Source: Actinomyces provencensis (GTDB lineage Bacteria > Actinomycetota > Actinomycetes > Actinomycetales > Actinomycetaceae). Taken from it: a stretch of DNA of 64,000 bases. A program made the position numbers and the translations under genes. Of this stretch, positions 1,921-38,423 are shown piece by piece. Numbering within the stretch: position 1 is the first letter of the stretch; the number at the start of each line of letters is the position of its first letter. Where the stretch lies: assembly GCF_900155435.1 (NCBI RefSeq), contig NZ_LT700212.1, positions 2,194,951 through 2,258,950 of the forward strand. Reading direction: 5' to 3'. The notes beneath the pieces were generated by a model. That model saw only the letters and a program-made list of their open reading frames with translations. It was not told the DNA's origin and searched no databases.

Positions 1921-1926
1921 CATCCC

Positions 1927-3633: not shown

Positions 3634-6136
3634 CCTCACCTACGAGGAGTTCGTGGCCGACAAGGCCAACCTCACCGCCGACTACGGCTTCGACGTCCAC
3701 CCCGACCAGATCAACCCAATCCTGTTCCCCCACCAGGCGGACGCTGTGCGATGGGCCTGCAAGGGCGGCCGGCGCGCCCTCTTCGAGGCCTTCGGCCTCG
3801 GCAAGTCCATGCAGCAGCTGGAGATCATCCGCCTCTGCCTCGCTCACGAAGGGGACGGCGCTCGCGGCCTGATCGTCTGCCCGTTGGGTGTGCGCCAAGA
3901 GTTCAAAGCGGACGCCGCGAAGCTCGGCATCGAGATCCGCTTCGTGCGCCGCTCGGATGAGGTCACCGGGCCGGGCATGTACTTGACGAACTACGAGTCG
4001 GTGCGTGACGGGAAGCTGGACCCGGCCATGTTCACCGCGGTGAGCCTGGACGAGGCCAGCATCCTCCGCTCCTTCGGGTCCAAGACGTACCAGACGTTCC
4101 TGACCCTGTTCGACGCGGTGCCCTACCGGTTCGTGGCCACGGCCACCCCGTCTCCGAACCGCTACAAGGAGCTGATCCACTACGCCGGCTACCTCGGTGT
4201 GATGGACACGGGGCAGGCGCTGACCCGGTTCTTCAAGCGGGACTCGACGAAGGCGAACAACCTCACGCTGTACCCGCACAAGGAGACCGAGTTCTGGCTG
4301 TGGCTCCACTCCTGGGCGCTGTTCCTCCTGCGTCCCTCGGACCTCGGCTACTCCGATGAGGGGTACGAGCTGCCCGACCTGGACGTGCGCTGGCACAAGG
4401 TGGAGGTCGACCAGACGAAGGTCACGGTGGACCGGGATGGGCAGGCGCACTTGTTCCGGGATGCGGCGATCGGTGTGGCGGACGCGGCCCGGGAGAAGCG
4501 CACGTCGATTCCGGCGCGCGTGGCCATGGCCCGGGACCTGGTGGAGGCCGCCCCGGATGATCACTTCATCCTCTGGCACGACTTGGAGGACGAGCGTCAC
4601 GCCATCAAGGCGGCCCTGCCTGAGGCTGTGGAGGTCTACGGGTCACAGGACCTGGACGTGCGCGAGCAGCGCATCATCGACTTTTCGGAGGGCCGCTCGA
4701 GGATCCTCGCCACGAAGCCGGTGATCGCCGGGTCCGGGTGCAACTTCCAGCGCCACTGCCACCGCGCGATCTTCGTCGGCGTCGGCTTCCGGTTCAACGA
4801 CTTCATCCAGGCGGTGCACCGCATCCAGCGGTTCCTGCAGACCGAGCGCGTGGTCATCGACATCATCTACGCGGAGTCCGAAGCGAGTGTGGTGGAGGTC
4901 CTCAAGGAGAAGTGGGCCCGCCACGACGAGCTGCAGGCCCGCATGGAGGACCTCGTGCGCCGCTTCGGCCTCTCCGAGACGGGCCTGGAGCAGCTGGTGC
5001 GCTCCTCCCAGGTCACGCGGGTCGCGACCCGAGGTGAGGGCTGGGAGTACGCGAACAATGACTGCGTCGAAGAGACCCGGGACATGCCCGAGAACTCCGT
5101 CGACCTGATCGTCACGAGCATCCCATTCTCCAACCAGTACGAGTACACGCCCAGCTACCTGGACTTCGGGCACACGGACGACAACTCGCACTTCTGGGCC
5201 CAGATGGACTACCTGACCCCGCAGCTGCTGCGCGTCCTGCGCCCGGGCAGGATCTACGCCTGCCACGTGAAGGACCGCATCAACTTCGGTGCCGTCACGG
5301 GCGCCGGCCTGCCGACCGTGAGCCCGTTCCACATGGAGGCCGCCTTCCACGCGATGCGCCACGGCTTCGACTATCTGGGCATGATCACGGTCGTCACCGA
5401 CGTGGTCCGGGAGAACAACCAGACCTACCGCTTGGGCTGGACCGAGGCATGCAAGGACATGACGAAGATGGGCGTCGGCAGCCCGGAGTACGTGCTCTTG
5501 TTCCACAAGCCGCAGTCGGACCGCACCCGCGGCTACGCGGACGTGCCCGTGACCCACTCGAAGGATGAGTACACGCGGGCCCGGTGGCAGGTCGACGCCC
5601 ACGCCTACTGGCGATCTTCCGGGAACCGGCTCCTGACGGCCGAGGAGCTCGCCTCGGTGTCGATGAGTGATCGCATGCGGATGTTCACCGAGGAGTCGGA
5701 GCGCACCGTCTACGACGCTGGCCGGCACGTGGCACTCGCGGAGGACCTCGACGCCCGCGGTGACCTGTCCTCCACGTTCATGAGCCTCGCGCCCGGGTCT
5801 TGGTCGCCGTTCGTGTGGACCGACATCAACCGCATGCTCACCCTCAACACCGCCCAGTCCCAGCGCCGCCAGGCGATGCACGTCTGCCCCCTGCAGTTCG
5901 ACATCGTGGATCGCCTCATCGAGCGCTACTCCAACCCGGGTGACCTCGTGTTCGACCCCTTCGGTGGGCTGGGCACGGTCCCGGTGCGCGCCATGAAGGC
6001 CGGCCGGCGTGGCCGTGGCGTGGAGCTCAACCCCGACTACTACCGCGATGCCCTCGTCTACCTCAGGGAGACGGAGGCCGCCGTCAACTCCCCGGACCTG
6101 TTCTCGGTCCTCGAATCGAATGGAGACGCAGCATGA
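3626..6136 (+). CDS. helicase (SNF2-like) and DNA methyltransferase fusion
   Basis: This 836-aa protein joins two enzymes. Residues 1 to about 450 are a superfamily 2 helicase: a Walker A variant FGLGKS (56-61), DEAS motif II (142-145), an Ala-Thr-Ala-Thr-Pro-Ser motif III, and a C-terminal RecA lobe ending in a His-Arg-Ile-Gln-Arg motif VI. Residues about 465-836 are an amino-methyltransferase of the permuted beta type, with the catalytic motif written as TSIPF (497-501) instead of the usual DPPY, and the AdoMet motif DPFGGLGT at 777. A phage use would be methylating its own DNA against host restriction, or remodelling. No endonuclease domain is visible. Confidence 0.8.
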   Translation: MSDLTYEEFVADKANLTADYGFDVHPDQINPILFPHQADAVRWACKGGRRALFEAFGLGKSMQQLEIIRLCLAHEGDGARGLIVCPLGVRQEFKADAAKLGIEIRFVRRSDEVTGPGMYLTNYESVRDGKLDPAMFTAVSLDEASILRSFGSKTYQTFLTLFDAVPYRFVATATPSPNRYKELIHYAGYLGVMDTGQALTRFFKRDSTKANNLTLYPHKETEFWLWLHSWALFLLRPSDLGYSDEGYELPDLDVRWHKVEVDQTKVTVDRDGQAHLFRDAAIGVADAAREKRTSIPARVAMARDLVEAAPDDHFILWHDLEDERHAIKAALPEAVEVYGSQDLDVREQRIIDFSEGRSRILATKPVIAGSGCNFQRHCHRAIFVGVGFRFNDFIQAVHRIQRFLQTERVVIDIIYAESEASVVEVLKEKWARHDELQARMEDLVRRFGLSETGLEQLVRSSQVTRVATRGEGWEYANNDCVEETRDMPENSVDLIVTSIPFSNQYEYTPSYLDFGHTDDNSHFWAQMDYLTPQLLRVLRPGRIYACHVKDRINFGAVTGAGLPTVSPFHMEAAFHAMRHGFDYLGMITVVTDVVRENNQTYRLGWTEACKDMTKMGVGSPEYVLLFHKPQSDRTRGYADVPVTHSKDEYTRARWQVDAHAYWRSSGNRLLTAEELASVSMSDRMRMFTEESERTVYDAGRHVALAEDLDARGDLSSTFMSLAPGSWSPFVWTDINRMLTLNTAQSQRRQAMHVCPLQFDIVDRLIERYSNPGDLVFDPFGGLGTVPVRAMKAGRRGRGVELNPDYYRDALVYLRETEAAVNSPDLFSVLESNGDAA

Positions 6137-6327
6137 GCAAGATCAGCGACGAACGCGTGGCGGAGCTCCTCTACAACGCGGCCTGGGCGTCTGTCGAGGA
6201 CGAGCCGCCGGTCCAGTGGTGCGACCTGACGGACGAGCGCCAGCTCACGGGGTATCGGGGCCAAGCGGCTGCGTTCATCTCGCTCTTGCGCGTCGGCGGC
6301 CATGAGATCACCGAGGTGGGCGACTGA
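6133..6327 (+). CDS. small hypothetical phage protein, 64 aa
   Basis: It overlaps the helicase-methyltransferase stop by four bases and shares one base with the start of ssb. It is a helical acidic protein beginning [12 protein letters not shown]. It is probably co-translated with its neighbours. I recognise no family. Confidence 0.55.
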
Positions 6328-6824
6328 TGGCCGGGGAGACGATCCTGACCTTGGTCGGGAACCTGACGGCGGACCCGGAGCTGCGGTTCACGCCCTCGGG
6401 TGCGGCGGTCGCGGACTTCACGGTGGCTTCGACGCCGCGGACGTTCGACCGGAACACGAACGAGTGGCGGGACGGCAACACCCTGTTCATGCGCTGCTCG
6501 GTGTGGCGGGAGGCCGCGGAGAACGTGGCGGAGTCCCTGCGCAAGGGCATGCGCGTGATCGTCCAGGGCAGGTTGACGCAGCGCTCGTTCGAGACGCGCG
6601 AGGGCGAGCGGCGCACGGTCGTGGAGCTGCAGGTGGACGAGGTCGGCCCGTCGTTGAAGCGGGCGCGCGCCCAGGTGACTCGCAACCAGCCCCAGCAGCA
6701 GGGGGGTGGCTTCGGGCAGGGCGGGTATGCCCCGGCTCCGGCACGGGGTGCGCCTGCACCTCAACCGCAGGACCCGTGGGACCCGGCCCAGCGCGGTGAC
6801 GTCCCGACTGAGCCGCCGTTCTGA
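6327..6824 (+). CDS. ssb: single-stranded DNA-binding protein
   Basis: The 165-aa protein has a standard OB fold in residues 1 to about 112, starting with Thr-Leu-Val-Gly-Asn-Leu-Thr-x-Asp-Pro-Glu-Leu and containing the Phe-Met-Arg-Cys-Ser-Val-Trp strand and the Gly-Arg-Leu-x-Gln-Arg-Ser-Phe/Tyr element typical of SSB. A Gly/Gln/Pro linker follows. The tail ends in Glu-Pro-Pro-Phe, so the terminal Pro-Phe is kept but the acidic run is short. It coats single-stranded DNA in phage replication and recombination and sits among other early phage genes. Confidence 0.93.
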
Positions 6825-27394: not shown

Positions 27395-28197
27395 CGAAAC
27401 GACGGTTCCTGGACGTCAAGCCCGACGATGCGGCCGCGACCGCGGGGCAGCTGTCGCAGCGGGATTCCTGGGTGTCGGCCACCATCACCGAGCAGGTCGA
27501 CCAGACGAACGTCGCGATCCGTATCGACGGAACCCCCGACGATCTCCCTGACGTGGTGGCGCCCTCGGAGTCCGGTGTCAGTGCCGTGGGCGCGTCGGTG
27601 CGGGCCCTGCGGGACTCGACGGGACGGGTGACGAAGGTCAGCATCCCCGACCGGATCCCTGAGGGCGCGGTGACCTTCTCGGTGGGTGTGACGGGTGAGC
27701 GTCTCGTGCAGCTGGATGCGACCACCGCAGCGCAGGGTGCCCAGCTGGACGCCGCGCAGGTGGCTCTCGACGAGGCGCGCGCCAAGCTGGAGGATCCCGA
27801 GACGGGACTGGATGCCGCCCAGACGAAGGCTGATGCCGCCGTGAGGGACGCGGTCGAGGCTCTCTCGGCCGCGAGCCAGGCCGTGGAGGACGCTTCCTCT
27901 GCTGTGGTCCTGCGAGTGGATTCTTCCAGGGGCTTGGTGTTCAAGAACAGCATGGTGTCCACCGTGCTGTCGGTGAGTGTGTTCGCGAAGGGGCGCACGA
28001 TCACGGACATCGTGGACCTGCATGACGTGTTCGGTGCGGGCGCTTTCCTGGAGTGGCAGTGGCGTCGCCTGGACGATTCAGATTTCGGTGTGATCTCCAG
28101 TGAGGACACGCGCATCGGAGCAGGAGGCTTCACTCTCACGGTGAGCCCGGCGGATGTGGACACGAAGACCGTGTTCATGTGTGTCTTGAAGACCTGA
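27388..28197 (+). CDS. minor tail protein with coiled coil
   Basis: The 269-aa protein starts with GTG and overlaps the hub gene. A central coiled coil (about residues 110-165, Ala/Gln/Asp repeats) joins an N-terminal region to a C-terminal beta domain that begins Ser-Ser-Arg-Gly-Leu-Val-Phe-Lys-Asn-Ser. The same motif recurs as Ser-Ser-Asn-Gly-Phe-Ile-Phe-Lys-Asn-Ser in the next gene, so the two proteins share a module. It is likely a fibre-shaft protein. Confidence 0.65.
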   Translation: MVTKRRFLDVKPDDAAATAGQLSQRDSWVSATITEQVDQTNVAIRIDGTPDDLPDVVAPSESGVSAVGASVRALRDSTGRVTKVSIPDRIPEGAVTFSVGVTGERLVQLDATTAAQGAQLDAAQVALDEARAKLEDPETGLDAAQTKADAAVRDAVEALSAASQAVEDASSAVVLRVDSSRGLVFKNSMVSTVLSVSVFAKGRTITDIVDLHDVFGAGAFLEWQWRRLDDSDFGVISSEDTRIGAGGFTLTVSPADVDTKTVFMCVLKT

Positions 28198-28259
28198 CCC
28201 GCCTCACGCACCCCTCAACCCGCATGTAGCACCCCCCTCTTCCGGAAGGCAGGACAGTC

Positions 28260-29291
28260 ATGGCTCAGAAAGCCGCAGATCAAGTCACCATCGTCGATGT
28301 CACCGACGCGTACAGCGTGATCCTCACCAGCGAGGCGTATACGTTCCCCGGCACTACGTCGGCCGCGAAGGCGGGTTCCACGACTACGCAGGTCGTGGCG
28401 ATGCTGGGGGCGGATCAGGTGGCCGCCACGGTGACACTGTCTGAGATCACGGCGCCCAGTGGGGTGACGGTGACAAAGGACACGGACGCGACAGCGCCCA
28501 CCCTGACTATCACGGTGAGCACGTCGGTGACCGCACCGGGCAACGTGAAAATCCCGGTGCACATCGGGGACGTGACCATCGTGAAGTCCTTCTCGTTCGC
28601 GATTGCGTTCACGGGTGCTGGTGGCAACGCGGGCAAGGGTATCTCGTCCACGAAGGTGGAGTATCAGGCCGGATCGAGTGGCACAAGCGCACCAACCGGC
28701 GCGTGGTCCACTTCGATCCCCTCCGTGGGCGCCGGCCAGTTCCTGTGGACCAGGACGACCTACACATACACGGACACCTCCACGGTCACGTCCTACGCGG
28801 TCGGCATGATGGGCCAGAAGGGGGACCCAGGCAGCGCCGGTAAGGGCGTGAAGCAGGCGGACGTGACCTACCAGGTGGGGAACAGTGGGAGTACTCCTCC
28901 AACCGGCACGTGGGCGGTGTCGATCCCGACCACTCCCCAGGGACAGTTCTTGTGGACCCGGACAGTGACGACCTACACCGACAATGCGATCAGCACCACG
29001 TACAGCGTGGCTCGCGCTGGCGTGGACGGTTCGGACGGTGCGGACGCCATCACCCTCGTCGTCACCTCCAGCAACGGGTTCATCTTCAAGAACAGTGCCA
29101 TCGCGACGGTGCTCACCGCCCACGTCTACAAGGCAGGCGTGGAAGTCACCGGGGCAGAGCTGACGGCGCTGGGGACCATCAAGTGGTACAAGGACGGGTC
29201 CAGCACGGCTGCTGCCACTGGTGCCACGCTGACGATTGACGCGGGCCAGGTGTCTGGGAAGGCGTCCTACACGGCCCAGTTGGAGGGATGA
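28260..29291 (+). CDS. tail fibre protein with tandem beta repeats and collagen-like insert
   Basis: The 343-aa protein contains two copies of a roughly 65-residue module (Lys-Gly-Ile/Val... Val-Glu/Thr-Tyr-Gln ... Pro-Thr-Gly-x-Trp ... Gln-Phe-Leu-Trp-Thr-Arg-Thr). A short collagen-like Gly-Asp-Pro-Gly insert lies between them. The C terminus has the Phe-Lys-Asn-Ser beta domain seen in the upstream gene. Such repeats make extended tail tips that meet the cell surface. Its ATG follows a GGAAGGCAGG ribosome site. Confidence 0.75.
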   Translation: MAQKAADQVTIVDVTDAYSVILTSEAYTFPGTTSAAKAGSTTTQVVAMLGADQVAATVTLSEITAPSGVTVTKDTDATAPTLTITVSTSVTAPGNVKIPVHIGDVTIVKSFSFAIAFTGAGGNAGKGISSTKVEYQAGSSGTSAPTGAWSTSIPSVGAGQFLWTRTTYTYTDTSTVTSYAVGMMGQKGDPGSAGKGVKQADVTYQVGNSGSTPPTGTWAVSIPTTPQGQFLWTRTVTTYTDNAISTTYSVARAGVDGSDGADAITLVVTSSNGFIFKNSAIATVLTAHVYKAGVEVTGAELTALGTIKWYKDGSSTAAATGATLTIDAGQVSGKASYTAQLEG

Positions 29292-29292
29292 C

Positions 29293-29619
29293 ATGGCCAC
29301 GAACCTCTGGCCCAACCAGTGGTGCGAGGCGTCCGGGCCTGTCATCGGTTCGGTCGCGGCCGATGTTGACGCCCCGGAGCATGGGGGCGTGTTCACGCTG
29401 GCGGGCAGGGACCATCGTCCACCGGAGCCGTTCCGGAGCCTGCCGGTGGTTGAAGGTGAGCGACAGCTCGTCCAGTTCGCCGCCCGCCGAGTGTCTGGAA
29501 CCAAGTCCCTGAATGTCGGAACGTGGGGCACGTCGGGAACTAACACGGGACCCCGCGACTACGTGTCTGCCACGAAGATTGCGGACCTCCCCGGCGGGGG
29601 GGGGGTGGGCGCTCTATGA
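29293..29619 (+). CDS. tail tip protein, N-terminal fragment ended by G-tract frameshift
   Basis: The ATG at 29293 follows a GGAGGG ribosome site right after the fibre gene. It reads as a good protein (Asn-Leu-Trp-Pro-Asn-Gln-Trp-Cys-Glu-Ala) for about 100 codons, enters a run of ten G (29596-29605), and stops at 29619 after 108 residues. With nine G the frame would continue as Trp-Ala-Leu-Tyr-Glu-Arg-Glu into the 524 residues read in the next frame, giving about 628 aa. The fragment would not make a working fibre by itself. Confidence 0.75.
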   Translation: MATNLWPNQWCEASGPVIGSVAADVDAPEHGGVFTLAGRDHRPPEPFRSLPVVEGERQLVQFAARRVSGTKSLNVGTWGTSGTNTGPRDYVSATKIADLPGGGGVGAL

Positions 29620-31180
29620 GCGTGAGATTCAGTACCAGTCCGGCGTCACGGCGGGAGGATTCTTCTTCCAGATCGAACAGGCCACATCGGGTGGGGACAC
29701 GATGTGGCAGGTTGCGGGGCCGCTCATGTGGAAGCGGGTGGCCGACATGGCTGTGAAAGCCCGCGATGACGTCACGCTCGCCGCCCTTACTGACGTTGCC
29801 AACGTGCGCCGCTACTACCTACTCCAGTCCTCGACCCTCAACCCGCCCGCAGCGCCCACCTCGAACCCCGCGCCCTCCCCGTGGGTGACGGCGGAGCCGA
29901 CCTACACGGAGGGCTCCACCACCAGCCTCTACACGGTCGACCTCACGGTCTTCACCGACGGCACCTTCGACTACTCGGCCGTGTCGAAATCCTCCAGCTA
30001 CGAGGCGGCGAAGAGCGCTTTCAACAAGGCGGTCGCGGCGACCAACGTGGCGAACGCGGCCCTCGCCGCCGTCCCCCCGTTCGTGCAGCAGGCCACCCCG
30101 AGTGCCACGGTGGTGGGTCAGTTGTGGTTCCCCCTGGACGCCTCCGGCCGCATGATCGGCATGAAGCGCGCCTCCAAGACGGGCACCAGCGGGTGGGTGG
30201 ACTACCTGTGGATGGCAGGGCGGATCCTCGTCCCCGGCAGCGTCGGCACGACCGAGATCGGCCCTGACGGTGTGCTTGCGGCCAACATCAAGGCCAGCAA
30301 CGAACTGTGGGCCAAGCTCGCGAGCTTCGCGAAGGTCACCACCGGCATGCTCATCGCAGGCAACGCCACCATCACCGAGGACCTCCTGGCCAACGTAATC
30401 ACGGGCATCATCATCCGTGGCGGCCTGTTTGAGGCGGGCGGCGGCTCGCTTCCCATGGTGCGTATCGGGCCCCTGTCCGGGCAGGTCGGTGTGGGTGACA
30501 CCTATGGGGTGCAGATCACTACACCCAACAACAGTGAAAACGGCAGCGCAGTCCTCGGAGTGGACCCAACTGGCCCCTACATGGAGTTCTACGACGGGAC
30601 AGGCAAGCAGGTCCTGGCTACGGACAAGACCGGCGTGCGTGTCGTGAATCAGATCAGCGGCGGAATGGTTGATATCTCGCTCCTAGCCGCGAACACAATG
30701 AGCTGGTCGATCACTGACACGTTCGACATGAAATTCTGGGAGGCCGGGGCAGGAACAACCCCATGGTGGGGGCCCTACTTCTTCCGCACCGCCGATGGCG
30801 CCTACGTGTCCAAGGACATCGGTGCCGTCGGCTCGTTCACCACGCCCACAGGAAAGGTCATGATCCAGGGCGGAGTTGACATCGGCAGTGCGCCCACCTA
30901 CCAGATCGGCGCGTCCGTCCAGTGGGGCATCTACACATCTGACCCCACGTCCTACGGGCGCGGTGACACGATGAAGACCATCGTCGGCGGGAGAGGCAGG
31001 GCTGAATGCGCGCGGCATATCGGGGGGGTCGGACAGCTCATGAACGGCAGCGAAGTTGTCACGGGCCTCACTCCCGGACAGAAGTACTGGATCGCCCCGT
31101 TCTACTGGTGCTACAGCATGGGAGCGCTCATCTCGAAGCCAATCAAGAGTCTATGGGTATCCGTCTCCCCCATCACGTGA
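29513..31180 (+). CDS. tail tip protein, C-terminal part in shifted frame
   Basis: Real coding in this frame begins at about 29606, just after the G tract, and runs for about 524 residues; the earlier 30 codons are out-of-frame noise. It includes a beta domain (Tyr-Thr-Glu-Gly-Ser-Thr-Thr), a prophage tail-like region (Gly-Thr-Thr-Glu-Ile-Gly-Pro-Asp-Gly-Val-Leu-Ala-Ala-Asn-Ile) typical of fibre-tip proteins, and a long beta-rich end, probably the receptor-facing part. It has no good start of its own, so in this state it is probably silent. Confidence 0.75.
   Translation: MSERGARRELTRDPATTCLPRRLRTSPAGGGWALYEREIQYQSGVTAGGFFFQIEQATSGGDTMWQVAGPLMWKRVADMAVKARDDVTLAALTDVANVRRYYLLQSSTLNPPAAPTSNPAPSPWVTAEPTYTEGSTTSLYTVDLTVFTDGTFDYSAVSKSSSYEAAKSAFNKAVAATNVANAALAAVPPFVQQATPSATVVGQLWFPLDASGRMIGMKRASKTGTSGWVDYLWMAGRILVPGSVGTTEIGPDGVLAANIKASNELWAKLASFAKVTTGMLIAGNATITEDLLANVITGIIIRGGLFEAGGGSLPMVRIGPLSGQVGVGDTYGVQITTPNNSENGSAVLGVDPTGPYMEFYDGTGKQVLATDKTGVRVVNQISGGMVDISLLAANTMSWSITDTFDMKFWEAGAGTTPWWGPYFFRTADGAYVSKDIGAVGSFTTPTGKVMIQGGVDIGSAPTYQIGASVQWGIYTSDPTSYGRGDTMKTIVGGRGRAECARHIGGVGQLMNGSEVVTGLTPGQKYWIAPFYWCYSMGALISKPIKSLWVSVSPIT
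29596..29605 (+). repeat. G10 homopolymer tract at frameshift point
   Basis: Ten consecutive G lie exactly where the two halves of the tail tip gene change frame. Removal of one G (or addition of two) restores a single frame. Such a tract is a classic slipped-strand phase-variation switch, but is also where sequencing or assembly errs most. Confidence 0.85.
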
Positions 31181-31193
31181 AAGAGAAGTTGCC

Positions 31194-31397
31194 ATGGATG
31201 AACAGCAGATACGAGAGATAAGCGACACCGACCTGGCAGACCAGGCCAGCGTCTATGCGGCCGAGCAGTCACGCCGCCAACTTCTGGCCGACACCATCAA
31301 TACCAGGATCATCCCAGCTGCCCGAGATTATCTCGCAGCAGGCGGAACGTGCGACGCCATACGCGCCGCACTCACAACTCTTGAGGAGGACCAGTGA
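31194..31397 (+). CDS. small helical phage protein, 67 aa
   Basis: I start it at the ATG at 31194 after an AAGAGAAG ribosome site. The protein is almost all helix (Ala-Asp-Gln-Ala-Ser-Val-Tyr-Ala-Ala-Glu-Gln) with an acidic C-terminal end. It lies between the tail tip gene and another tail gene and overlaps the latter by four bases. It could be a fibre chaperone; no family recognised. Confidence 0.55.
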   Translation: MDEQQIREISDTDLADQASVYAAEQSRRQLLADTINTRIIPAARDYLAAGGTCDAIRAALTTLEEDQ

Positions 31398-32032
31398 GCA
31401 CGCAGCACAGGAAGGGCGTCGTAATTCCCAGCGCGGGAGATGACCTGCTCGACGCGTGGGTCGTCGCGGTTGACACTGCTGGCATCATCACCCACGCCTC
31501 CAGCGTCGCAAGCGCTCGCGTTGCCCTCACCCAGTGGGAGACCGCCGGAGCGGCCCCCACGACCGACCACCCCGCCTACTTCGACGTCAATGGCATCTTC
31601 TACAAGGCCGACGGAACGAAGAATCACACCACCTGGGTCCTTAAGCCGTGGAATGAGAAGGAGTTCGTGGAGCAGGCGATCGGGTCTGGTGCCACGGTCT
31701 CGGTCGGGAACGGCGAGTTCAAGGGCATTCTGAAGTCCACTCTTCCTGTGCGCCCGTACGACAGGATGGTCACCGCGCACGGCCTCGTCTGGGGTGTCGC
31801 GACGGGCAGTCTCGGCGTCGATATGCGTATCGGTGACGATCATGTTGCTGCGCAGTTCTGGGCGGGCGGTAACTCGCAGTTCGCAATCAACACCGGCAAG
31901 GTTCCTGCTGGCGTCGCGCCGGACATCGAGGTGGGCGTGATCGGCTTTAGTGGTGGTGGGAGTCTTCGCGTGTCTGTTGATGACAAGTGGGTGCGACTCG
32001 TCGTGACGGCGGACCCCATCACCATGGCCTGA
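31394..32032 (+). CDS. tail-associated protein, 212 aa
   Basis: GTG start at 31394 overlaps the upstream stop. The N-terminal half carries a Trp-Val-Val-Ala-Val-Asp strand and Tyr-Phe-Asp-Val-Asn-Gly-Ile-Phe-Tyr-Lys-Ala-Asp-Gly-Thr; the C-terminal half is a beta-rich domain with many Gly/Val. It is the last gene before the terminator that precedes the lysis genes, so probably a further minor tail or tip protein. Family not recognised. Confidence 0.6.
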   Translation: MSTQHRKGVVIPSAGDDLLDAWVVAVDTAGIITHASSVASARVALTQWETAGAAPTTDHPAYFDVNGIFYKADGTKNHTTWVLKPWNEKEFVEQAIGSGATVSVGNGEFKGILKSTLPVRPYDRMVTAHGLVWGVATGSLGVDMRIGDDHVAAQFWAGGNSQFAINTGKVPAGVAPDIEVGVIGFSGGGSLRVSVDDKWVRLVVTADPITMA

Positions 32033-32049
32033 CCTCACTCTCGAACCCC

Positions 32050-32082
32050 ACGCCCCTCGCCACACGGCAGGGGCGTTTCTCA
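32050..32082 (+). terminator. rho-independent terminator between tail and lysis genes
   Basis: ACGCCCCT (32050-32057) pairs with AGGGGCGT (32069-32076), an 8-bp stem with an 11-base loop, followed by TTTCTC. It lies 18 bases beyond the last tail gene. Confidence 0.7.
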
Positions 32083-32111
32083 TGCCCACCAGTCCCCGAG
32101 GAGGACGCATC

Positions 32112-32990
32112 ATGACCGCACAGGCAGCACTTGACATCGCAGCAGCTGACATCGGGTACTACGCTCCCGACGACCCAGAGCCCGGCTCGGCGGCCGGACG
32201 TTGGCTCGCCGACAAGCTCAACCAACCGTGGCTGCGGGGCCCATCCACGCGGATCTGGTGGTGCATGGCCGCCGTCAGCATGTGGGTTTACAAGTCTGGC
32301 GGACGGATGCCGGGTGGCCCCCAGTTCAACACGGACGCCGCCGTGGCCGCCGCGCGGCGGGAGAACCGCCTCGTCGACAAGAACGACACGCAGGTTGGCG
32401 ACGTCCTGATCTATGACTGGAACTACGGGACCATGGCAACCGACCACACGGGCCTGTGCCTGGACCCGTCCAGCGATTCGGTCGTCATCGCCATTGAGGG
32501 CAACACGTCCTCGGGCAACGCTGGCAGCCAGTCAGCAGGCAATGGCGTGTACCGCCGCACCCGCGACTGGGATGACGTGCGCTACGTGATCCGCCCCTAC
32601 TACGACGGATCTCCCACCACAAACTCCGCAACCTCGGCCCCCAACCTCAAGGTTGACGGCTGGTGGGGCGAGGAGACGAGCTACTGGCTGCAGATCGCCC
32701 TGGGGACGCCCGCAGACAAGATCGTCTCCAGCCAGGACGTCTACTGGGAGTCCCGCAATCCGGGCCTGGGCACCGGCTGGGAGTGGGTGAACTCCGAGGA
32801 TGCCGAGGGGTCCCAGCTCATCGAGGCCATCCAGCGCAAGGTTGGAGCCCCGCCTGACCGTCTCATCGGCCCCGACACGATCCGCCACATCCAGGACCAC
32901 AAGGGCACTCCGGTCGACGGGCGGATCGACGAGTACAGCCAGTGCGTCATGCGGATCCAGAAGGACCTCAATGCGGGCCTTGGATTCTGA
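32112..32990 (+). CDS. lysA: endolysin with CHAP domain
   Basis: ATG at 32112 is preceded by GAGGAGG about ten bases away. The 292-aa protein starts with a CHAP amidase/peptidase: Cys51 in Trp-Trp-Cys-Met-Ala-Ala, His112 in Asp-His-Thr-Gly, and Glu129/Asn131 in Glu-Gly-Asn-Thr. Residues about 175-292 resemble a double peptidoglycan-binding module (Val-Asp-Gly-Trp-Trp-Gly, and Val-Asp-Gly-Arg-Ile-Asp near the end). It would cut the host wall at the end of infection. No signal peptide, so release depends on the holin. Confidence 0.88.
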   Translation: MTAQAALDIAAADIGYYAPDDPEPGSAAGRWLADKLNQPWLRGPSTRIWWCMAAVSMWVYKSGGRMPGGPQFNTDAAVAAARRENRLVDKNDTQVGDVLIYDWNYGTMATDHTGLCLDPSSDSVVIAIEGNTSSGNAGSQSAGNGVYRRTRDWDDVRYVIRPYYDGSPTTNSATSAPNLKVDGWWGEETSYWLQIALGTPADKIVSSQDVYWESRNPGLGTGWEWVNSEDAEGSQLIEAIQRKVGAPPDRLIGPDTIRHIQDHKGTPVDGRIDEYSQCVMRIQKDLNAGLGF

Positions 32991-33147
32991 CCCAGCCCGT
33001 GAGGCTCTCACCGTCACCCTGGCCGCTGTCGTGGCGGGCGTGGCGGTGGGAGCCCTCACGTGGGGCGTGATCATCACGATCCAGCTCACCCGCCTCCTCC
33101 ACGTCTTGACCCTCCTGGCCGAGGCGCTCGCCAACCAACCGCTCTGA
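32971..33147 (+). CDS. small membrane protein, holin candidate, 58 aa
   Basis: The ATG at 32971 lies inside the endolysin end. The 58-residue protein has a single membrane segment of about 25 residues (Val-Thr-Leu-Ala-Ala-Val-Val-Ala-Gly-Val-Ala-Val-Gly) preceded by a charged N terminus and followed by a short amphipathic end. Overlap with lysA and the neighbouring second holin candidate support a lysis role. Confidence 0.6.
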   Translation: MRALDSDPAREALTVTLAAVVAGVAVGALTWGVIITIQLTRLLHVLTLLAEALANQPL

Positions 33148-33160
33148 AAGGAGCACACGC

Positions 33161-33616
33161 ATGCTTCCCCAGCTTGACCTCTCGTTCGACCCGCTCGGGT
33201 GGGCCGTCATCGTCGGCCTGATCTGGCCCACCATCCAGGCCGCCCTCGACCGGCCCACATGGACCAGGAGCCGCCGTCTCGCCCTCGTGATCATCGCGGG
33301 CATCGTCTTGTCCCTGGCCCTGTGGTGGGCTGGTGCCTACCCCCTGACCGCCCAGCTCGTGTGGAGTCAGGCCTCGGTCATCATCGCCACCGCCACCGCA
33401 GCATTCGCCCTCCTGAAGAAGCTCGGCGTCATCGACTGGATCGGGCGCGTCACCCCCGGCGGAGAGACTCGCGTCGTTGGGGGTGCCAGCACTGTCACGG
33501 ACGAGACGCCCTCCGTCACGCCTCCGGCGCTGACTGTCACGGATGCGGGCGGCGTGACCGCCGTACCCAACGTCGAGGCCACCTCCCAGGGCGAGGGAGA
33601 GGCACCTCAGGCATGA
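33161..33616 (+). CDS. holin-like membrane protein, 151 aa
   Basis: GAAAGGAGC precedes the ATG at 33161. There are three hydrophobic segments in the first 95 residues (around 14-26, 40-58 and 70-87) and an exposed Thr/Val/Ala-rich tail of about 55 residues. Size and position after the endolysin are like actinophage holins with three membrane segments. The stop overlaps the next start. Confidence 0.7.
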   Translation: MLPQLDLSFDPLGWAVIVGLIWPTIQAALDRPTWTRSRRLALVIIAGIVLSLALWWAGAYPLTAQLVWSQASVIIATATAAFALLKKLGVIDWIGRVTPGGETRVVGGASTVTDETPSVTPPALTVTDAGGVTAVPNVEATSQGEGEAPQA

Positions 33617-34152
33617 ACCTGGACGACCTAGTCGGCCTCACCGGCGCGCTCGCGGTCCTCATCACCGCAGTGGTCGGGGTCGCCTCCTACCGGTGGGGTC
33701 GCGGCAAGACCAGGGCGGAAGAGGATCTCACGAAGGCCACGGCCCGCAAAGTCGAGGCCGAGGCGCGAGCAGCCGAAGCGGAAGCCCGGGCCTCGGAGTC
33801 CCGCGCATCCCTGGAGGAGATCGCCGGAGGCATCACCGACCGCTTCGACCAGCTCACCACCAGGCTCGACCGGGTCGTCCACGAGGTCACCCCGAACCAC
33901 GGCGGCTCCATGAAAGACGCGCTGCGCCGCGTGGAGCAGTCCCAAGCACGCCTCGCCAAGGACCAGGCCCACGACCGAGACGAGCACCGGGAGTGGCGCC
34001 GCTCCCTGGGCCACCAGGTAGGTGAGATCAAGGACCAGCTCGCCAACGAAGCCGAGGACCGCCGCGAGGTCGGCAAACGCCTCGACGAGCTCGACCGCCA
34101 CGCGGACCAGGAGCACAAGGACATCCGCGAGGAGATCCGCAAGCTCCGCTGA
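33613..34152 (+). CDS. membrane-anchored coiled-coil protein (DUF2746-like)
   Basis: The ATG at 33613 overlaps the holin stop. One N-terminal membrane segment (about 8-26) is followed by a long coiled coil of charged heptads to the C terminus of 179 residues (Ala-Arg-Ala-Ala-Glu-Ala, then Glu-Glu-Ile-Ala, Asp-Gln-Leu-Thr-Thr-Arg-Leu-Asp-Arg-Val). Such proteins follow holins in several actinophages; they may act as spanin-like or antiholin factors, which is not shown. Confidence 0.65.
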   Translation: MNLDDLVGLTGALAVLITAVVGVASYRWGRGKTRAEEDLTKATARKVEAEARAAEAEARASESRASLEEIAGGITDRFDQLTTRLDRVVHEVTPNHGGSMKDALRRVEQSQARLAKDQAHDRDEHREWRRSLGHQVGEIKDQLANEAEDRREVGKRLDELDRHADQEHKDIREEIRKLR

Positions 34153-34168
34153 CACCTCAAGCCAAGCC

Positions 34169-34202
34169 GCCCCCGGCTCACCTTCACGGGTGGGCCGGGG
34201 GC
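34169..34202 (+). terminator. terminator closing the late operon
   Basis: GCCCCCGGCTCACC (34169-34182) pairs with the reverse GGTGGGCCGGGGGC region ending at 34202, with one wobble pair and a five-base loop. It lies 17 bases after the last lysis gene. The tail has few T, but the stem is very strong. Confidence 0.6.
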
Positions 34203-34315
34203 AGTCTCGTCACATCTATCGCGAGTCCGTGGGTACGAAACCGACATCGAGCTTGTTCGGGGTCAGTTACTCTGGGCTGCGTTGAGGACCCACTAGTGAG
34301 AGCCGGAAACGACCA

Positions 34316-34891
34316 ATGTCTATCCCTGTGCTGGATGCCGCAGGCATGCTTCCTCCGGGTCGATTTCTCACAACACTGGATGAGGTTGAGGACCGCTTTG
34401 TTGCGAATGCCACGTTCGGCGGTTCGGCTACACGAAGGACCATCTGGGGCGGGTTCCTGGAGTACATCGGAGCTTGGAGGGCTGCCGAGGAATCTACCGC
34501 CGCTCCAGGCCGGGCGCTCCTCGGAGTGTGGCTGGCGGGATCGTTCATCAGCGCCAAGATCGACCCAAGCGACCTCGATTGCACCCCCGTGCTAGACGTG
34601 AAGGTCATGGAAGCGACGAAGGGACGCCCCGGTCATGGAGACATGAAGAAGCTCGTGAGACATCGTGATGGAGTTAGGTCGATGTTCCACGTTGAGGTCT
34701 TCCCATACAAGTGGACCCCTGTGCGCTCCAGCCTGTTCCCCGCGACATGTAGCCAATCCGAACGTGACTCATTGTGTGCACGAGGTGCACTGGATGCTTG
34801 GTGGCAGAGGGTCCGCCCGCCTGGTCCAGAACGGGCGCCGGAACCGTCTCCGCCCTACCCTGAGCGTGGCTACTTGGAGGTGATCCTATGA
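34316..34891 (+). CDS. DUF6932-like nucleotidyltransferase-fold protein
   Basis: The 191-aa protein begins like the DUF6932 family (hydrophobic Leu-Asp-Ala-Ala-Gly-Met-Leu-Pro-Pro-Gly) and has the polymerase-beta-type nucleotidyltransferase mark: Leu-Ala-Gly75-Ser76-Phe, then Asp86-x-Asp88 as paired acidic residues. The usual partner strand with Val-Glu-Val-Phe-Pro lies at about residue 125-132. Such folds are found in toxin-antitoxin and abortive-infection systems and transfer nucleotides onto RNA or protein. A following gene overlaps by ATGA, implying a two-part system. Codon choice is less GC-rich than in adjoining phage genes, a hint of separate origin. Family name is from memory. Confidence 0.65.
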   Translation: MSIPVLDAAGMLPPGRFLTTLDEVEDRFVANATFGGSATRRTIWGGFLEYIGAWRAAEESTAAPGRALLGVWLAGSFISAKIDPSDLDCTPVLDVKVMEATKGRPGHGDMKKLVRHRDGVRSMFHVEVFPYKWTPVRSSLFPATCSQSERDSLCARGALDAWWQRVRPPGPERAPEPSPPYPERGYLEVIL

Positions 34892-35808
34892 CCACCAGTG
34901 ACGAGTCGAGGGCGCGTCCAGAGCTCTCAGAGCGAGCGAAGCGCTTCTTCGCACAATACGACGAACCGAATGGCGACATTGCCGACATCCTCGACGCTTC
35001 GGCATACGAGGCTGCGCTCAGCGCCGATCCGACTTTGGCAATCCGTTCGCGACTCAACGTTCGATTGCGTAGCACGACCGACGAAGGGGTGCCCGGATGG
35101 GTTCCTGAGAGGGTCCAGGAGAGAGTTGCAGCACCGCTGTGTCGTCAGTTCGCTGTCGCTCTCGATAGACCACAGGAGAGTCTGGAACTTGGGCTCGTTG
35201 GGGTAAGCGAGGGCAGCGTAATCCTTCACTTCGAGCCGCGAGCTAGAGCTGAGCATGAAGATGGAAGGCTCATATCGCTCAGCTCCTTGGATCTCGCAGT
35301 AGAGAAGATCGCTCAGCTCAACAGCCTTCTTGAAGAAGAAGCTCCACTTGGGGAGATCGCGGCGAAGTTTGGAACTGCACGCAAGTTGTTAAAGGCCACG
35401 CGTGCGGTAATGGACGGGCTGGACCAATGTGATCTCGACATGGGGGTTACGTGGTACGGATCCAGTGGAAGTGTGCGGACATCCGAAGTAACCTCGCGGG
35501 CCCGAGGACACGCTCGATCCATGTTTCGTCGGTTGGAAAGGGAACAGCCTGCGACTGTCGACGGCTACATCGGCGCTGTCGACCTCAGTGGTTCGATCGC
35601 GTTGGTTGATGCGCTTCCCGCGGGGAGGCACCGAAAGACCGTCAAGGTCGCTCCGGAAGAGATGGGCAGGTTCATGCGGCGCGTCGGCGAGTGGGTCGTG
35701 CTCTCAGTTGAAGAGAAGAACGAAGTCGACAGCGTGGGTTTGCGCAGCAAGACCTCTTGGCACTTCATCTCAGAGACCCCAACGGACCAGCCATTGTTTG
35801 AAGAGTGA
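34888..35808 (+). CDS. unrecognised 306-aa partner of the DUF6932-like gene
   Basis: Translation is coupled to the upstream gene (overlap of four bases). The protein has an N-terminal helical region of about 90 residues (Glu-Arg-Ala-Lys-Arg-Phe-Phe-Ala-Gln-Tyr-Asp), a middle of mixed helices, and a C-terminal beta-rich domain (about 215-300) with Gly-Tyr-Ile-Gly-Ala-Val-Asp-Leu-Ser-Gly-Ser and a Val-Lys-Val-Ala-Pro strand. I do not recognise it. Base composition and use of codons such as TTA, GTA and AAT differ from the neighbouring phage genes. It is likely the other half of an accessory pair, either a target-sensing or a neutralising protein. Confidence 0.65.
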   Translation: MTTSDESRARPELSERAKRFFAQYDEPNGDIADILDASAYEAALSADPTLAIRSRLNVRLRSTTDEGVPGWVPERVQERVAAPLCRQFAVALDRPQESLELGLVGVSEGSVILHFEPRARAEHEDGRLISLSSLDLAVEKIAQLNSLLEEEAPLGEIAAKFGTARKLLKATRAVMDGLDQCDLDMGVTWYGSSGSVRTSEVTSRARGHARSMFRRLEREQPATVDGYIGAVDLSGSIALVDALPAGRHRKTVKVAPEEMGRFMRRVGEWVVLSVEEKNEVDSVGLRSKTSWHFISETPTDQPLFEE

Positions 35809-35819
35809 GTTCTCTTGAC

Positions 35820-35861
35820 AGCCGCCCAGCTTGGATCAGTCCAGGCGGGGCGGCTTCTTCA
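35820..35861 (+). terminator. strong terminator after the accessory cassette
   Basis: AGCCGCCC (35820-35827) pairs with GGGCGGCT (35848-35855) and an inner TTGGA/TCCAG stem further closes the loop around TCAG; TCTTC follows. It comes 12 bases after the second cassette gene and insulates it from the facing integrase operon. Confidence 0.7.
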
Positions 35862-36079
35862 TGTGTGGGGTGCTTCGTCGAGATAGTTGGCAAGACGAGA
35901 TGATGCGTTGCGGCGGATGGAGGCGTGGGCGACCCGTCGCCGTGGCGCCCTTCTACGCAGACTCCCCTGGCCTTGTGACTGACCTGGGGGAGCCTGCGGG
36001 TCAGGAGCAAGCTCAACACCGACCCACCCGTTGAGGCTACGGCCACGGTCCGGTCGACACGCCGGGACTCGTGAGATGA

Positions 36080-36117
36080 CTGTTCCCCCCGGCCGAGGCG
36101 GCGGCCGAGGGGAACAG
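36080..36117 (-). terminator. hairpin downstream of the integrase operon
   Basis: CTGTTCCCC (36080-36088) is the exact inverse of GGGGAACAG (36109-36117), with an additional GGCC/GGCC inner pairing. On the minus strand it comes 39 bases after the 44-aa gene. The sequence beyond has no T-run on either strand, so it may be a weak terminator for both directions. Confidence 0.5.
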
Positions 36118-36155
36118 GTGCGAGCCGATTCGACGTCGTTGTCGCACGTCAACGA

Positions 36156-36290
36156 CTATAGCGGCTCGCTGCGGGCGACAAGTGTGTCTGGTGAGTCCGG
36201 GCAACGTTCATTCCATCCGTGACGCGCACACCGCAGACACAGCTCAATCCCACCACACTCCGGGCACCGCTCGGGATCCGCATCGCTCAC
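36156..36290 (-). CDS. 44-aa Cys-rich protein ending the integrase operon
   Basis: Read on the minus strand, a GTG at 36290 overlaps the stop of the 76-aa gene (GTGA) and opens a 44-codon frame. It contains Cys9-x-x-Cys12, Cys18-x-x-Cys21 and Cys30, with His24, a clear zinc-ribbon arrangement, and an acidic N terminus. Overlap, Cys spacing and lack of another gene here support it. It is too short for most gene callers. Function unknown, possibly a DNA- or protein-binding accessory factor. Confidence 0.6.
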   Translation of the reverse strand: MSDADPERCPECGGIELCLRCARHGWNERCPDSPDTLVARSEPL

Positions 36291-36517
36291 AGGCCCCCGC
36301 CCGCCTGCCGTAGCTTCTCCATGAGCTCGGGCCCCTGGGCCGAGAGCACACGCCGGGCCATGTAGGCCGACACCCCCAGCTTCGCCGGGAACTCTTCTTC
36401 CACCGCCTCCAGGGAGTGCTTGCGTGACACGAGCAGGACGCCCGACATCCGCAGCGCCACCGACAGGGCGAACGCTTCCGCCTTCGTCAGGTGCAGGGTC
36501 ACCGTTTCGTCATCCAT
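36287..36517 (-). CDS. small hypothetical protein, 76 aa, in the integrase operon
   Basis: I start it at the ATG at 36517, 44 bases after the HTH gene. The protein is helical and acidic in its first third (Asp-Asp-Glu-Thr-Val-Thr-Leu-His-Leu-Thr-Lys-Ala-Glu-Ala), with a later Pro-Ala-Lys-Leu-Gly-Val-Ser segment like a short HTH and an Ala-Arg-Arg-Val-Leu helix. No clear ribosome site lies ahead of this ATG; a longer in-frame region upstream is less likely. Family not recognised. Confidence 0.5.
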   Translation of the reverse strand: MDDETVTLHLTKAEAFALSVALRMSGVLLVSRKHSLEAVEEEFPAKLGVSAYMARRVLSAQGPELMEKLRQAGGGL

Positions 36518-36561: not shown

Positions 36562-36948
36562 TCACTTCTCGCTGTACTCGACTGCCAGGTCGCGGATCTG
36601 GCGCTGGAGGCGTCCAGCGGTGGCGAGCCACCATCCGGCGGGGAGCCGTCGGGCTTCGGGGTCTCGCCCGGCGTCGGCGTCACTGCGCCAGACGGTGAGT
36701 GTGGGACTCTCGTCCTGGGTGAGACGTTCCGCCAGCTGCGTCTCGGCCGCGAGGGTGATCTGCACGAGCTTGTCGATCGCTTCTGCTTGGCGGTAGGTGA
36801 CGACGTCCTTACCGCGTTCCATGCGGGAGATGTCGTTGTCGCTCTGGCCGAGGTACTGCCCGAGCCATGCTCTCGTGACGCCGAGCCAGGTGCGGGTGGC
36901 GGCGAGTTCGGCGCCGGTCATGACGATGTCCCACTGATGGTCGCTCAT
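36562..36948 (-). CDS. HTH protein, YdiL/Aca2-like, 128 aa
   Basis: The start overlaps the integrase stop (ATGA). Residues about 10-55 read Met-Thr-Gly-Ala-Glu-Leu-Ala-Ala-Thr-Arg-Thr-Trp-Leu-Gly-Val-Thr followed by Gly-Gln-Tyr-Leu-Gly and Ile-Ser-Arg-Met-Glu-Arg-Gly-Lys, an XRE-type helix-turn-helix like YdiL and the Aca2 regulators that sit beside anti-CRISPR genes. The C-terminal half is a helical region of unknown role with a Trp-Trp pair. It is the only repressor-like gene on the right side of the prophage and may control integrase and itself, or lysogeny. Confidence 0.7.
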   Translation of the reverse strand: MSDHQWDIVMTGAELAATRTWLGVTRAWLGQYLGQSDNDISRMERGKDVVTYRQAEAIDKLVQITLAAETQLAERLTQDESPTLTVWRSDADAGRDPEARRLPAGWWLATAGRLQRQIRDLAVEYSEK

Positions 36949-38153
36949 GATGCCTGTGCCTTCCCGTGACCCAACTTCTTTCCGAGTCCGAGGGTAGTGG
37001 CAGCGGCTTCGAGGGCGGCGACCATCTGTGGGTCGGATGTGTGGAGGTAGGGCTGGGAGGACCCGGCGGAGGCGTGGCCGACGATGGCGATGCGCGTCGC
37101 TTCGGGGACCTTGAGGGCGTCGAGGACGGAGACGACGGTGTGGCGGATCTCGTGGAGCTCGTAGGGATCACCGTCGGGGCTGACGACGCCTGCCCGGGCT
37201 TGGATCTCGTACCACTCGCGCCGGTCGTAGATGGAGTTGCGTGGGTGCCCGTTGTCCCGGGGCCAGACGAGGTCATGGGGACTGGAGGGTGCGATCTTGC
37301 GCCATGCGCGGAGTTCGTCGGCGAGGTCGTCGATGAGGGGGAGCTCGCGTTCGGTGGCGTCGGTCTTGACCTCCATGAGGTGGAGTCCGCCGTAGAGCTG
37401 GCGGGCGCGCACGTGGTCGGGAATGTCGAAGGTTCCGGCCTTCCTGTCGGCGTACTTGATGCGCTGGAGTTCCCAGTCGATGCGGAGGTGGCCGTGCTCG
37501 AGGTCGACACATCCCCAGGTGAGTCCGAGGGTCTCACCCTGGCGGAGTCCGTAGCTGAGGGCGGTGAGCCAGCGGGAGCGGTCGGGCTGGGCCTGGACGA
37601 CTTCGAGGATGGCGGCGAGTTCTTCGGGGGCGATGGCGGTGCGCGTGGATTTCGCGGCCTTGGGTGACTGGGTCAGGAGGGCGGCGTCGGGGACGTAGAG
37701 TCCTTCGCGCTTGGCGGCACGCAGCATGTTCTTGAGGACGCGGTGCGCGTTCTTGGCGCTGGTGGTGGACAGGCGCGCCTGGGCGATCGCATCGGCGACG
37801 CGGCGGATGTCACCGGGGTTGAGCTCGCTGAGCTTGCGCCGCCCGATGGTGGGGATGATCCAGAGGCGGAGCTTGCTCTCGTAGTCCTCTCGGACCCGGG
37901 GCTTGAGGCTACCGAAGTGGATCTTCTCCCAGCGCGCCGCCCAGGCGGCGACGGTGACGTTGCGGCCGGCAAGCGCTTGTTGCCCGCCCTCGCGGTACTT
38001 GCGCAGGAGCTCACGTGCCCGTCGCTTCGCCTCAGCCTCGGTGCGCGCGACAGCCGACGGCCGAAGTCTCGTGCCACGTGGTGTCCAGCCGGCCTCGATG
38101 CGAGCCACCCAGTACCCGTCCGACCGCCGGTACGTCTGAATGCCCGTGTTCAT
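36945..38153 (-). CDS. int: tyrosine-type integrase of the prophage
   Basis: The ATG at 38153 follows a GAAGGGA ribosome site and gives 402 aa. An N-terminal arm-binding part and a core-binding SAM-like domain precede the catalytic region: Arg204 in Tyr-Gly-Leu-Arg-Gln-Gly-Glu, His334-x-x-Arg337, His360 in Ile-Val-Gly-His, and the nucleophile Tyr369 in Gln-Pro-Tyr-Leu-His. This is the classical tyrosine recombinase set. It is next to the tRNA-Gly gene, its likely target. It heads a four-gene minus-strand operon with an overlapping HTH gene. Confidence 0.95.
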   Translation of the reverse strand: MNTGIQTYRRSDGYWVARIEAGWTPRGTRLRPSAVARTEAEAKRRARELLRKYREGGQQALAGRNVTVAAWAARWEKIHFGSLKPRVREDYESKLRLWIIPTIGRRKLSELNPGDIRRVADAIAQARLSTTSAKNAHRVLKNMLRAAKREGLYVPDAALLTQSPKAAKSTRTAIAPEELAAILEVVQAQPDRSRWLTALSYGLRQGETLGLTWGCVDLEHGHLRIDWELQRIKYADRKAGTFDIPDHVRARQLYGGLHLMEVKTDATERELPLIDDLADELRAWRKIAPSSPHDLVWPRDNGHPRNSIYDRREWYEIQARAGVVSPDGDPYELHEIRHTVVSVLDALKVPEATRIAIVGHASAGSSQPYLHTSDPQMVAALEAAATTLGLGKKLGHGKAQAS

Positions 38154-38211
38154 GCCGTCCCTTCGCCCGCTCACGACACCCTCCCGGAGGGGTCGAGAAT
38201 CCAAGCCACTA

Positions 38212-38233
38212 TGGCGCCCATTTTGGCGCCCAT
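38212..38233 (+). repeat. direct repeat of TGGCGCCCAT, probable arm-type sites
   Basis: TGGCGCCCAT occurs at 38212-38221 and 38224-38233, 12 bases apart, just upstream of the integrase gene; each has a GGCGCC palindrome core. Such closely spaced repeats near int are typical of integrase arm-binding sites, or operators for the HTH protein. No further copies were noticed between here and the tRNA. Confidence 0.5.
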
Positions 38234-38320
38234 TTCTAGTGCGTTCGAGGGTAGATGGGGGCGTGTGCAGCTCCGCCCGCAACTCCGGGGGTGGAGGCCG
38301 GAAACGGCGGAATGATGCGG

Positions 38321-38343
38321 AAAACCCCCGCCGTGGCGAGGGC
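38321..38343 (-). terminator. terminator of tRNA-Gly
   Basis: On the minus strand, CCCTCGCC pairs with GGCGGGGG and is followed by TTTTCC. It comes about ten bases after the tRNA 3' end. If the attachment core is inside the tRNA, this terminator was brought by the phage. Confidence 0.6.
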
Positions 38344-38352
38344 TCCTGGTGG

Positions 38353-38423
38353 AGCGGGCGACGGGAATCGAACCCGCGCTACCAGCTTGGGAAGCTGGAG
38401 TTCTACCATTGAACTACGCCCGC
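38353..38423 (-). tRNA. glyT: tRNA-Gly (anticodon CCC), likely prophage attachment site
   Basis: The minus strand folds as a normal 71-base tRNA: acceptor GCGGGCG with CGCCCGC, D-arm with AATGGTAG, anticodon stem CCAGC/GCTGG with loop TTCCCAA, and T-arm GGTTCGATTCC. The loop gives anticodon CCC. Its 5' end and promoter lie on the chromosome side and its 3' end faces the integrase, so the phage most likely integrated in its 3' half and rebuilt it. No CCA is encoded. Confidence 0.93.

Follow-up and report, generated by a model that had tools for sequence, protein, structure and literature searches.

An actinobacterial prophage carries a divergent form of the candidate defence gene pair PDC-M63AB

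Enzymes of the MenT and AbiEii type are nucleotidyltransferase toxins and provide a model for a protein acting on a molecule of the host, and in MNT-HEPN systems the MNT protein acts as a nucleotide transferase on HEPN. In phage lambda, rexA and rexB occupy the slot behind the CI repressor. Among the validated toxin-antitoxin (TA) defence systems, PD-T4-10 comprises a toxic protein, PD-T4-10B, which is neutralised by PD-T4-10A and is required for resistance to T4, and DUF6575 is listed among the domains new to defence, as given in the available part of that report (Vassallo et al. 2022, PMC9519451). The pair PDC-M63AB is a catalogued PADLOC candidate for which one deletion is described in the accessible portion of a later study (PMC12409345), the sole test of the pair that our literature search found; as far as titles and the beginnings of abstracts show, there was no further work on the pair and nothing on DUF6932. 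Here, we analysed a stretch of 64,000 nucleotides of Actinomyces provencensis (NZ_LT700212.1, hereafter the window) and a pair of prophage-borne genes within it, A and B, which, by sequence comparison, is a divergent actinobacterial prophage variant of PDC-M63AB. An earlier interpretation made from the letters alone (the sequence-only reading) had described two open reading frames (ORFs) overlapping by ATGA, and their coordinates, 34316-34891 and 34888-35808, are exact; its statement that the pair is previously uncharacterised has to be withdrawn given the PADLOC entry and the published deletion.

34316..34891, + strand: gene A, 191 aa, DUF6932, nucleotidyltransferase-like
34888..35808, + strand: gene B, 306 aa, divergent PDC-M63B relative
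34888..34891, + strand: overlap ATGA of the A stop and the B start, read from the sequence

The A protein matched DUF6932 (PF22014, E 2e-17, 64.4 bits, passing the cut-off of 27) as its sole Pfam family at E <= 1, in agreement with the DUF6932-like start recognised earlier, and also matched PHROG 9194 (E 2.9e-7) and the PADLOC model of PDC-M63A (PDLC04744, E 1.4e-7). The latter model was matched by 14 of 14 A proteins at E <= 0.01; a second PADLOC model for A, PDLC04745, gave 0 matches in the 6 genomes searched. No match to A was obtained by tblastn in phages, and A matches were present in five plasmid records, two of which were examined.

Window B had no match in Pfam, NCBIfam, PHROGs or PADLOC, and none to the PDC-M63B models at E <= 1. 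Searches with this protein returned nothing from phages or plasmids (tblastn) or from the genome contigs, only its own genome among 296 genomes of the same phylum, and a single IMG/VR locus, which is this very prophage. The B family was instead reached via A, by way of a plasmid, a viral contig and then 12 loci in named genomes. Scored with a profile built from its seven nearest relatives in the B family, the window itself left out, window B reached 114 bits, compared to a maximum of ~8 bits for 1000 shuffles. A single PDC-M63B model matches as many as eight of 14 B proteins (best E 4e-62). PDC-M63B is matched as well by the B proteins tested from lambdoid phages and Aeromonas, the best of them being the Aeromonas protein (E ~1e-167). 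Since window B is homologous to these PDC-M63B-matching proteins, the pair belongs to the PDC-M63AB family, and since the PDC-M63B models miss window B itself, it is to be regarded as a divergent variant and not as a member under the PADLOC rule. Among the relatives, the Streptomyces B (L022) had no match in plasmids, and the Curvibacter B matched eight phage/plasmid records (6 + 2), five of which were examined, the remaining three being named as phages already examined (mEpX1 twice, vB_EhrS_59 once). A B-profile match in genome G188 (L019, E 3e-4) was dropped, as the ORFs there appear by eye to be unrelated metabolic genes.

The two genes form a conserved unit. At 12 of 12 A loci in named genomes the next gene is B (297-367 aa), and in all 25 tabulated pairs A precedes B, with an overlap in 24 and one of exactly four bases in 17, the B starts of L034, L036 and L047 having been chosen by script as the nearest to the A stop. 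The TA-like organisation and the joint conservation proposed by the sequence-only reading are both upheld by these pairs, which often reside on mobile elements and recur in phages and in unrelated bacteria, there on chromosomes and on one plasmid. Distances between A proteins and between B proteins are correlated (rho 0.51; 5000 permutations reach at most 0.32), a correlation that could partly reflect shared host descent, and in both the A tree and the B tree the window groups with L020 from Allokutzneria and with clade L021-L026. The ratio dN/dS, obtained with a simple script, was 0.05-0.16 across the 6 of 16 comparisons with unsaturated dS (the other 10 were dropped for saturation), which indicates purifying selection.

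When 396 Actinomycetota genomes were searched with the A profile, 15 places in 14 genomes were found: six with B, three with a B-core of reduced length, in one case fused to A, four with an XRE-type helix-turn-helix (HTH) gene (by eye), and two lying at the end of a contig or close to it (G236, G386). The B profile detected 7 places in 6 of the same genomes, 5 of them adjoining A. It missed the weak B (E 2e-5) of L036, one of the six A places with B; of the two remaining B places, L063 adjoins a possible restriction endonuclease gene upstream (by eye, PDB E 0.077) and L064 overlaps a PIN gene. In E. coli, a pair of the PhiR30_1 type is present in 97 of 5426 genomes and one of the mEpX1 type in 18 of 5426, two sets that may overlap and are not summed. 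Proximity to known defence genes, envisaged by the sequence-only reading, was not encountered: in the flanks of 12 relatives and in four window genes, no known defence family was found among the matches listed (25 of 98 Pfam families), the scan covering 88 of 117 listed ORFs with L031 left out. Recombinases were noticed by eye near L024 and L028.

All four annotated lambdoid records examined have the pair as the next annotated feature after a CI-type repressor, on the same strand. These are E. coli phages mEpX1 and PhiR30_1, Erwinia phage vB_EhrS_59 and a Klebsiella prophage, in which the repressor is annotated as an S24 peptidase; the record of a fifth relative, from Aeromonas, carries no annotation. 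The suggestion that the pair occupies a slot for lysogenic cargo is borne out by its position in these several phages, a position which, as judged from gene order, provides the best evidence that the pair may be expressed in the lysogen. B is not a relative of RexA (hhalign probability 0.3%; of the two rex products, RexA was the one compared).

As nucleotidyltransferase enzymes display a pattern of G-S, D-x-D and a third acid, we inspected these positions in an alignment of 25 A proteins.

34538..34543, + strand: Gly75-Ser76, nucleotidyltransferase-like signature
34571..34579, + strand: Asp86-x-Asp88
34694..34696, + strand: Glu127, putative third catalytic acid

Window A (predicted structure, pLDDT 82.3) carries the complete pattern, namely G75, S76, D86, D88 and E127, and the nucleotidyltransferase-like motif noted earlier is indeed present. 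Its conservation in homologues, also proposed, holds for G75 and D88 (25/25 each) and largely for S76 (23/25, G in the other two), but fails for D86, which is kept in 19 of 25 proteins and replaced by N in six; the third position is acidic in 19 and Ser in the same six. These six N86/S127 proteins form one clade (support 100/99). Within it, the L022-L025 comparison gave dN/dS values of 0.11 for A and 0.05 for B, i.e. purifying selection, suggesting that catalysis is not the whole story in that clade.

For B, the predicted model (m3aab2647de7f, mean pLDDT 75.6, pTM 0.61) comprises two recognisable parts.

35050..35535, + strand: B core, residues ~55-216, alpha/beta in the predicted model, common to the C-terminal part of DUF6575 proteins
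35536..35799, + strand: predicted C-terminal SSB-like OB fold, residues 217-304

B shows no recognised enzyme family in Pfam, and the Pfam matches of 14 B proteins include no HEPN family; residues 1-216 of B were barely compared with solved folds. Profiles gave no significant match to PDB sequences. The B protein of an E. coli phage matched an LPXTG protein, an odd match (E 0.0026) in which no single stretch passes alone. No mark of a phage structural protein was seen in B, in line with the sequence-only reading, and that identity is unsupported. The B proteins at L049 (5806-6738), L050 and L051 (both 5809-6741) and L052 (5821-6750) weakly match PDC-M32A or PDC-M02B (PADLOC, E 3e-5 to 0.03), a hint that additional PADLOC candidate systems contain the B core.

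The predicted fold of window B also led to DUF6575, matching a viral DUF6575 protein with E 5.1e-13 and TMq 0.54. An hhalign comparison of 19 B proteins with four DUF6575 proteins gave a probability of 98.7% and E 2.2e-16 over 258 columns, covering core and OB fold together, and the part in common is the region following DUF6575. Three of these four proteins match PD-T4-10_B through their first ~130 residues. Two of the three combine this match, to the N-terminal part of PD-T4-10_B, with one to PDC-M63B; L055 matches neither. Judging from this PADLOC match, DUF6575 probably lies in PD-T4-10B. The gene upstream of the DUF6575 gene matches PD-T4-10_A in L055 (9.3e-5) and does not in L048 and L054. 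PF20215 (DUF6575) was present in 0 of 5 genomes and in 1 of 296 genomes, a search for an E. coli relative starting from Pantoea genes found none, and the DUF6575 protein of L048 had no match in phages and matched five plasmid records. A stand-alone DUF6575 protein of 134 aa is encoded at L057 (2465-2869), on a Mycobacteroides plasmid, among small unknown genes.

Both A and B occur with other partners. At 4 of the 15 Actinomycetota A places an XRE-type HTH gene replaces B, once with an ImmA/IrrE-like peptidase part (by eye), and a short DUF6932 protein followed by an XRE-type HTH gene was seen at L006 (4998-5956), L007 (1339-2522), L010 (1351-2489) and L046 (729-1764), where proteins often start with MIKND or similar (by eye). 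This combination would give the family a second TA-like arrangement, one of the classical kind. At L008 (reverse complement, 1492-3365), the gene after DUF6932 encodes an XRE protein of 480 aa in which an ImmA/IrrE-like HEIGH motif was recognised by eye, a layout that resembles PD-lambda-2 as described in the available part of PMC9519451. For B, the gene at L064 (1468-2720) overlaps a FitB-like PIN gene (PIN match E 2.5e-5) by four bases; its product is related to the B family (probability 95.6%, E 1.2e-8) and sits in the antitoxin position. The PIN frame appears short at its end. At L040 (1495-2634), a natural fusion joins a DUF6932 domain to a B-core seemingly without the OB fold, suggesting A-B contact. 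On its own, L040 was not significant against the B family (probability 3.9%) and L009 reached 76% (E 2.3e-5); a three-sequence profile of L040, L009 and L038 gave 94% (E 1.5e-7, 161 columns), and these three B relatives seem to be without the OB part.

We propose, at a probability of roughly 0.4, a model in which A and B constitute a TA-like exclusion cassette expressed in the lysogen, with A as the effector and B as antitoxin and sensor. It builds on the homology, pairing, gene order, overlap and genomic positions observed here, together with the predicted OB fold and the active-site residues of window A. The effector role is assigned to A because A also pairs with XRE-type genes, the usual antitoxin type, and the antitoxin role to B because a B-like gene holds the antitoxin position beside the PIN gene. 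A, the presumed toxic partner, would be held inactive by binding of B, whose SSB-like OB fold likely senses a nucleic acid, or a nucleic-acid-binding protein, of an incoming phage. Once B is engaged or removed, A would transfer nucleotides to a host molecule, perhaps tRNA by analogy with MenT and AbiEii, and the cell would no longer support phage growth. Two observations weigh against this model. One actinobacterial clade, comprising six of the 25 A proteins, is without two of the three catalytic acids. Moreover, removing PDC-M63AB from E. coli NILS69, whose subtype is not established here, had no effect on 10 phages according to the available part of PMC12409345; as its authors note there, the phage collection consists of virulent dsDNA phages.

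The strongest of the alternatives, which we nevertheless consider unlikely, is the reverse polarity, with B as a toxin like PD-T4-10B and A as an antitoxin that transfers a nucleotide to B or, among the A proteins that have lost the acids, acts by binding alone. This would have to be reconciled with the pairing of A with XRE genes in places without B and of a B-like protein with a PIN toxin. Furthermore, B lacks DUF6575, the additional domain of PD-T4-10B, which also stands alone in L057 (134 aa), and B shows no recognised enzyme family. A role in addiction or in the regulation of lysogeny, unrelated to other phages, appears improbable; the slot behind the repressor would suit lysogeny control, and both the outcome in NILS69, in the portion of PMC12409345 available, and the flanks, with no defence family among the matches listed, fit such a role, but unrelated bacteria have the same pair in their chromosomes or, in one case, on a plasmid, and the corresponding slot of lambda holds exclusion genes. 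Least probable is a constitutive complex in which a nucleotidyltransferase and an OB-fold targeting subunit act on phage nucleic acid without TA logic, as the OB/SSB-like domain, the 4-base overlaps suggestive of matched amounts and the A/B-core fusion would favour, given that three B relatives seem to lack the OB part, one A clade lacks the catalytic acids and A is found with other partners.

Extending the proposal of A as effector and B as antitoxin and sensor, we tentatively suggest, with less confidence than the cassette model itself, that the B core and OB fold may be a reusable antitoxin/phage-sensor module coupled to exchangeable effectors: the DUF6932 nucleotidyltransferase, a PIN nuclease (L064), by fusion the DUF6575 toxin domain (kin of PD-T4-10B) and perhaps the effectors of further PADLOC candidates such as PDC-M32. 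Temperate phages would carry this module in the rexAB slot as an as yet unstudied second exclusion system, and A would be a pseudo-enzyme, presumably acting by binding, in one actinobacterial clade. As far as the literature was searched, the divergent variant, the rex slot, the link to DUF6575 and PD-T4-10B, the PIN pairing and the pseudo-enzyme clade are new. A listed but unexplained defence candidate is hereby tied to a proven TA defence system via a common module, and the pairs in the rexAB slot sit in E. coli phages that are testable in K-12. The questions raised concern the identity of the toxic partner, the signal for the OB fold and the need for catalysis, for which the clade without the acids is a natural case.

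As to the surroundings of the pair in the window, the following features were recorded.

34166..34205, + strand: hairpin between the lysis-like genes and the pair, 15-bp main stem, from the fold of 34158-34225
35820..35855, + strand: terminator-like hairpin 3' of B, from folding energy and a short U tract
36945..38282, - strand: prophage tyrosine integrase, PF00589, E 1.6e-11
38235..38395: right copy of a 161-bp attachment-site-like repeat, covering the tRNA-Gly end
38350-38423: tRNA-Gly

The repeat recurs with 93.8% identity at genome positions 2190072-2190232, and as its copies mark both ends, the prophage measures ~43 kb. The placement between lysis genes and integrase given by the sequence-only reading is correct, the lysis-like genes on one side being identified by eye only. 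So is its remark on less GC-biased codons: GC content at third codon positions is 64% in A and 63% in B, compared to 78, 84 and 85% in three upstream phage genes and 83% in the integrase, and overall GC is 59.3% in the pair versus 65.3% in 28001-34155. The strong terminator claimed behind B was confirmed as a stem (~35820-35855, -30.2 kcal/mol, z -4.2) but not in its function, the tail being merely UUCUUC and a consensus scan of 33500-36500 showing no promoter and no terminator. The upstream hairpin (~34166-34205, -38.8 kcal/mol, z -6.05, no T run), which that reading had not mentioned, is stronger than the closing one and likely separates the pair from late transcription. With its distinct composition and a hairpin on each side, the pair appears to form a transcription unit of its own, close to the integrase end. 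An HTH-like gene (by eye) at 36562-36948 (- strand), possibly a prophage regulator, has its start within the final four bases of the integrase gene.

Compared with lambda rexAB, the family shares the location of two genes directly behind a CI-type repressor in lambdoid phages, whereas the pair of the window prophage lies elsewhere, near the integrase. MNT-HEPN, MenAT and AbiEi/AbiEii are alike in that one of two operon partners carries a nucleotidyltransferase-type signature, but window A matches DUF6932 alone in Pfam (E <= 1) and, as regards MNT-HEPN, no HEPN match was found among 14 B proteins. PD-T4-10 likewise consists of two genes, which overlap according to the available part of PMC9519451, and its DUF6575 kin match the B family in their C-terminal part; in contrast to PD-T4-10, window B is without DUF6575 (no Pfam match at E <= 1) and without a PD-T4-10_B match, and the first gene encodes DUF6932. 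This link runs through the C-terminal part of the DUF6575 kin rather than through that of the validated E. coli protein itself. The closest system is PDC-M63: although a search with the PDC-M63B models would miss window B, and window A is longer than the lambdoid A proteins (191 versus 119-159 aa) and has RGYLEV followed by two residues at its end, both consist of adjacent genes on the same strand, window A matches PDC-M63A and the relatives of window B match PDC-M63B.
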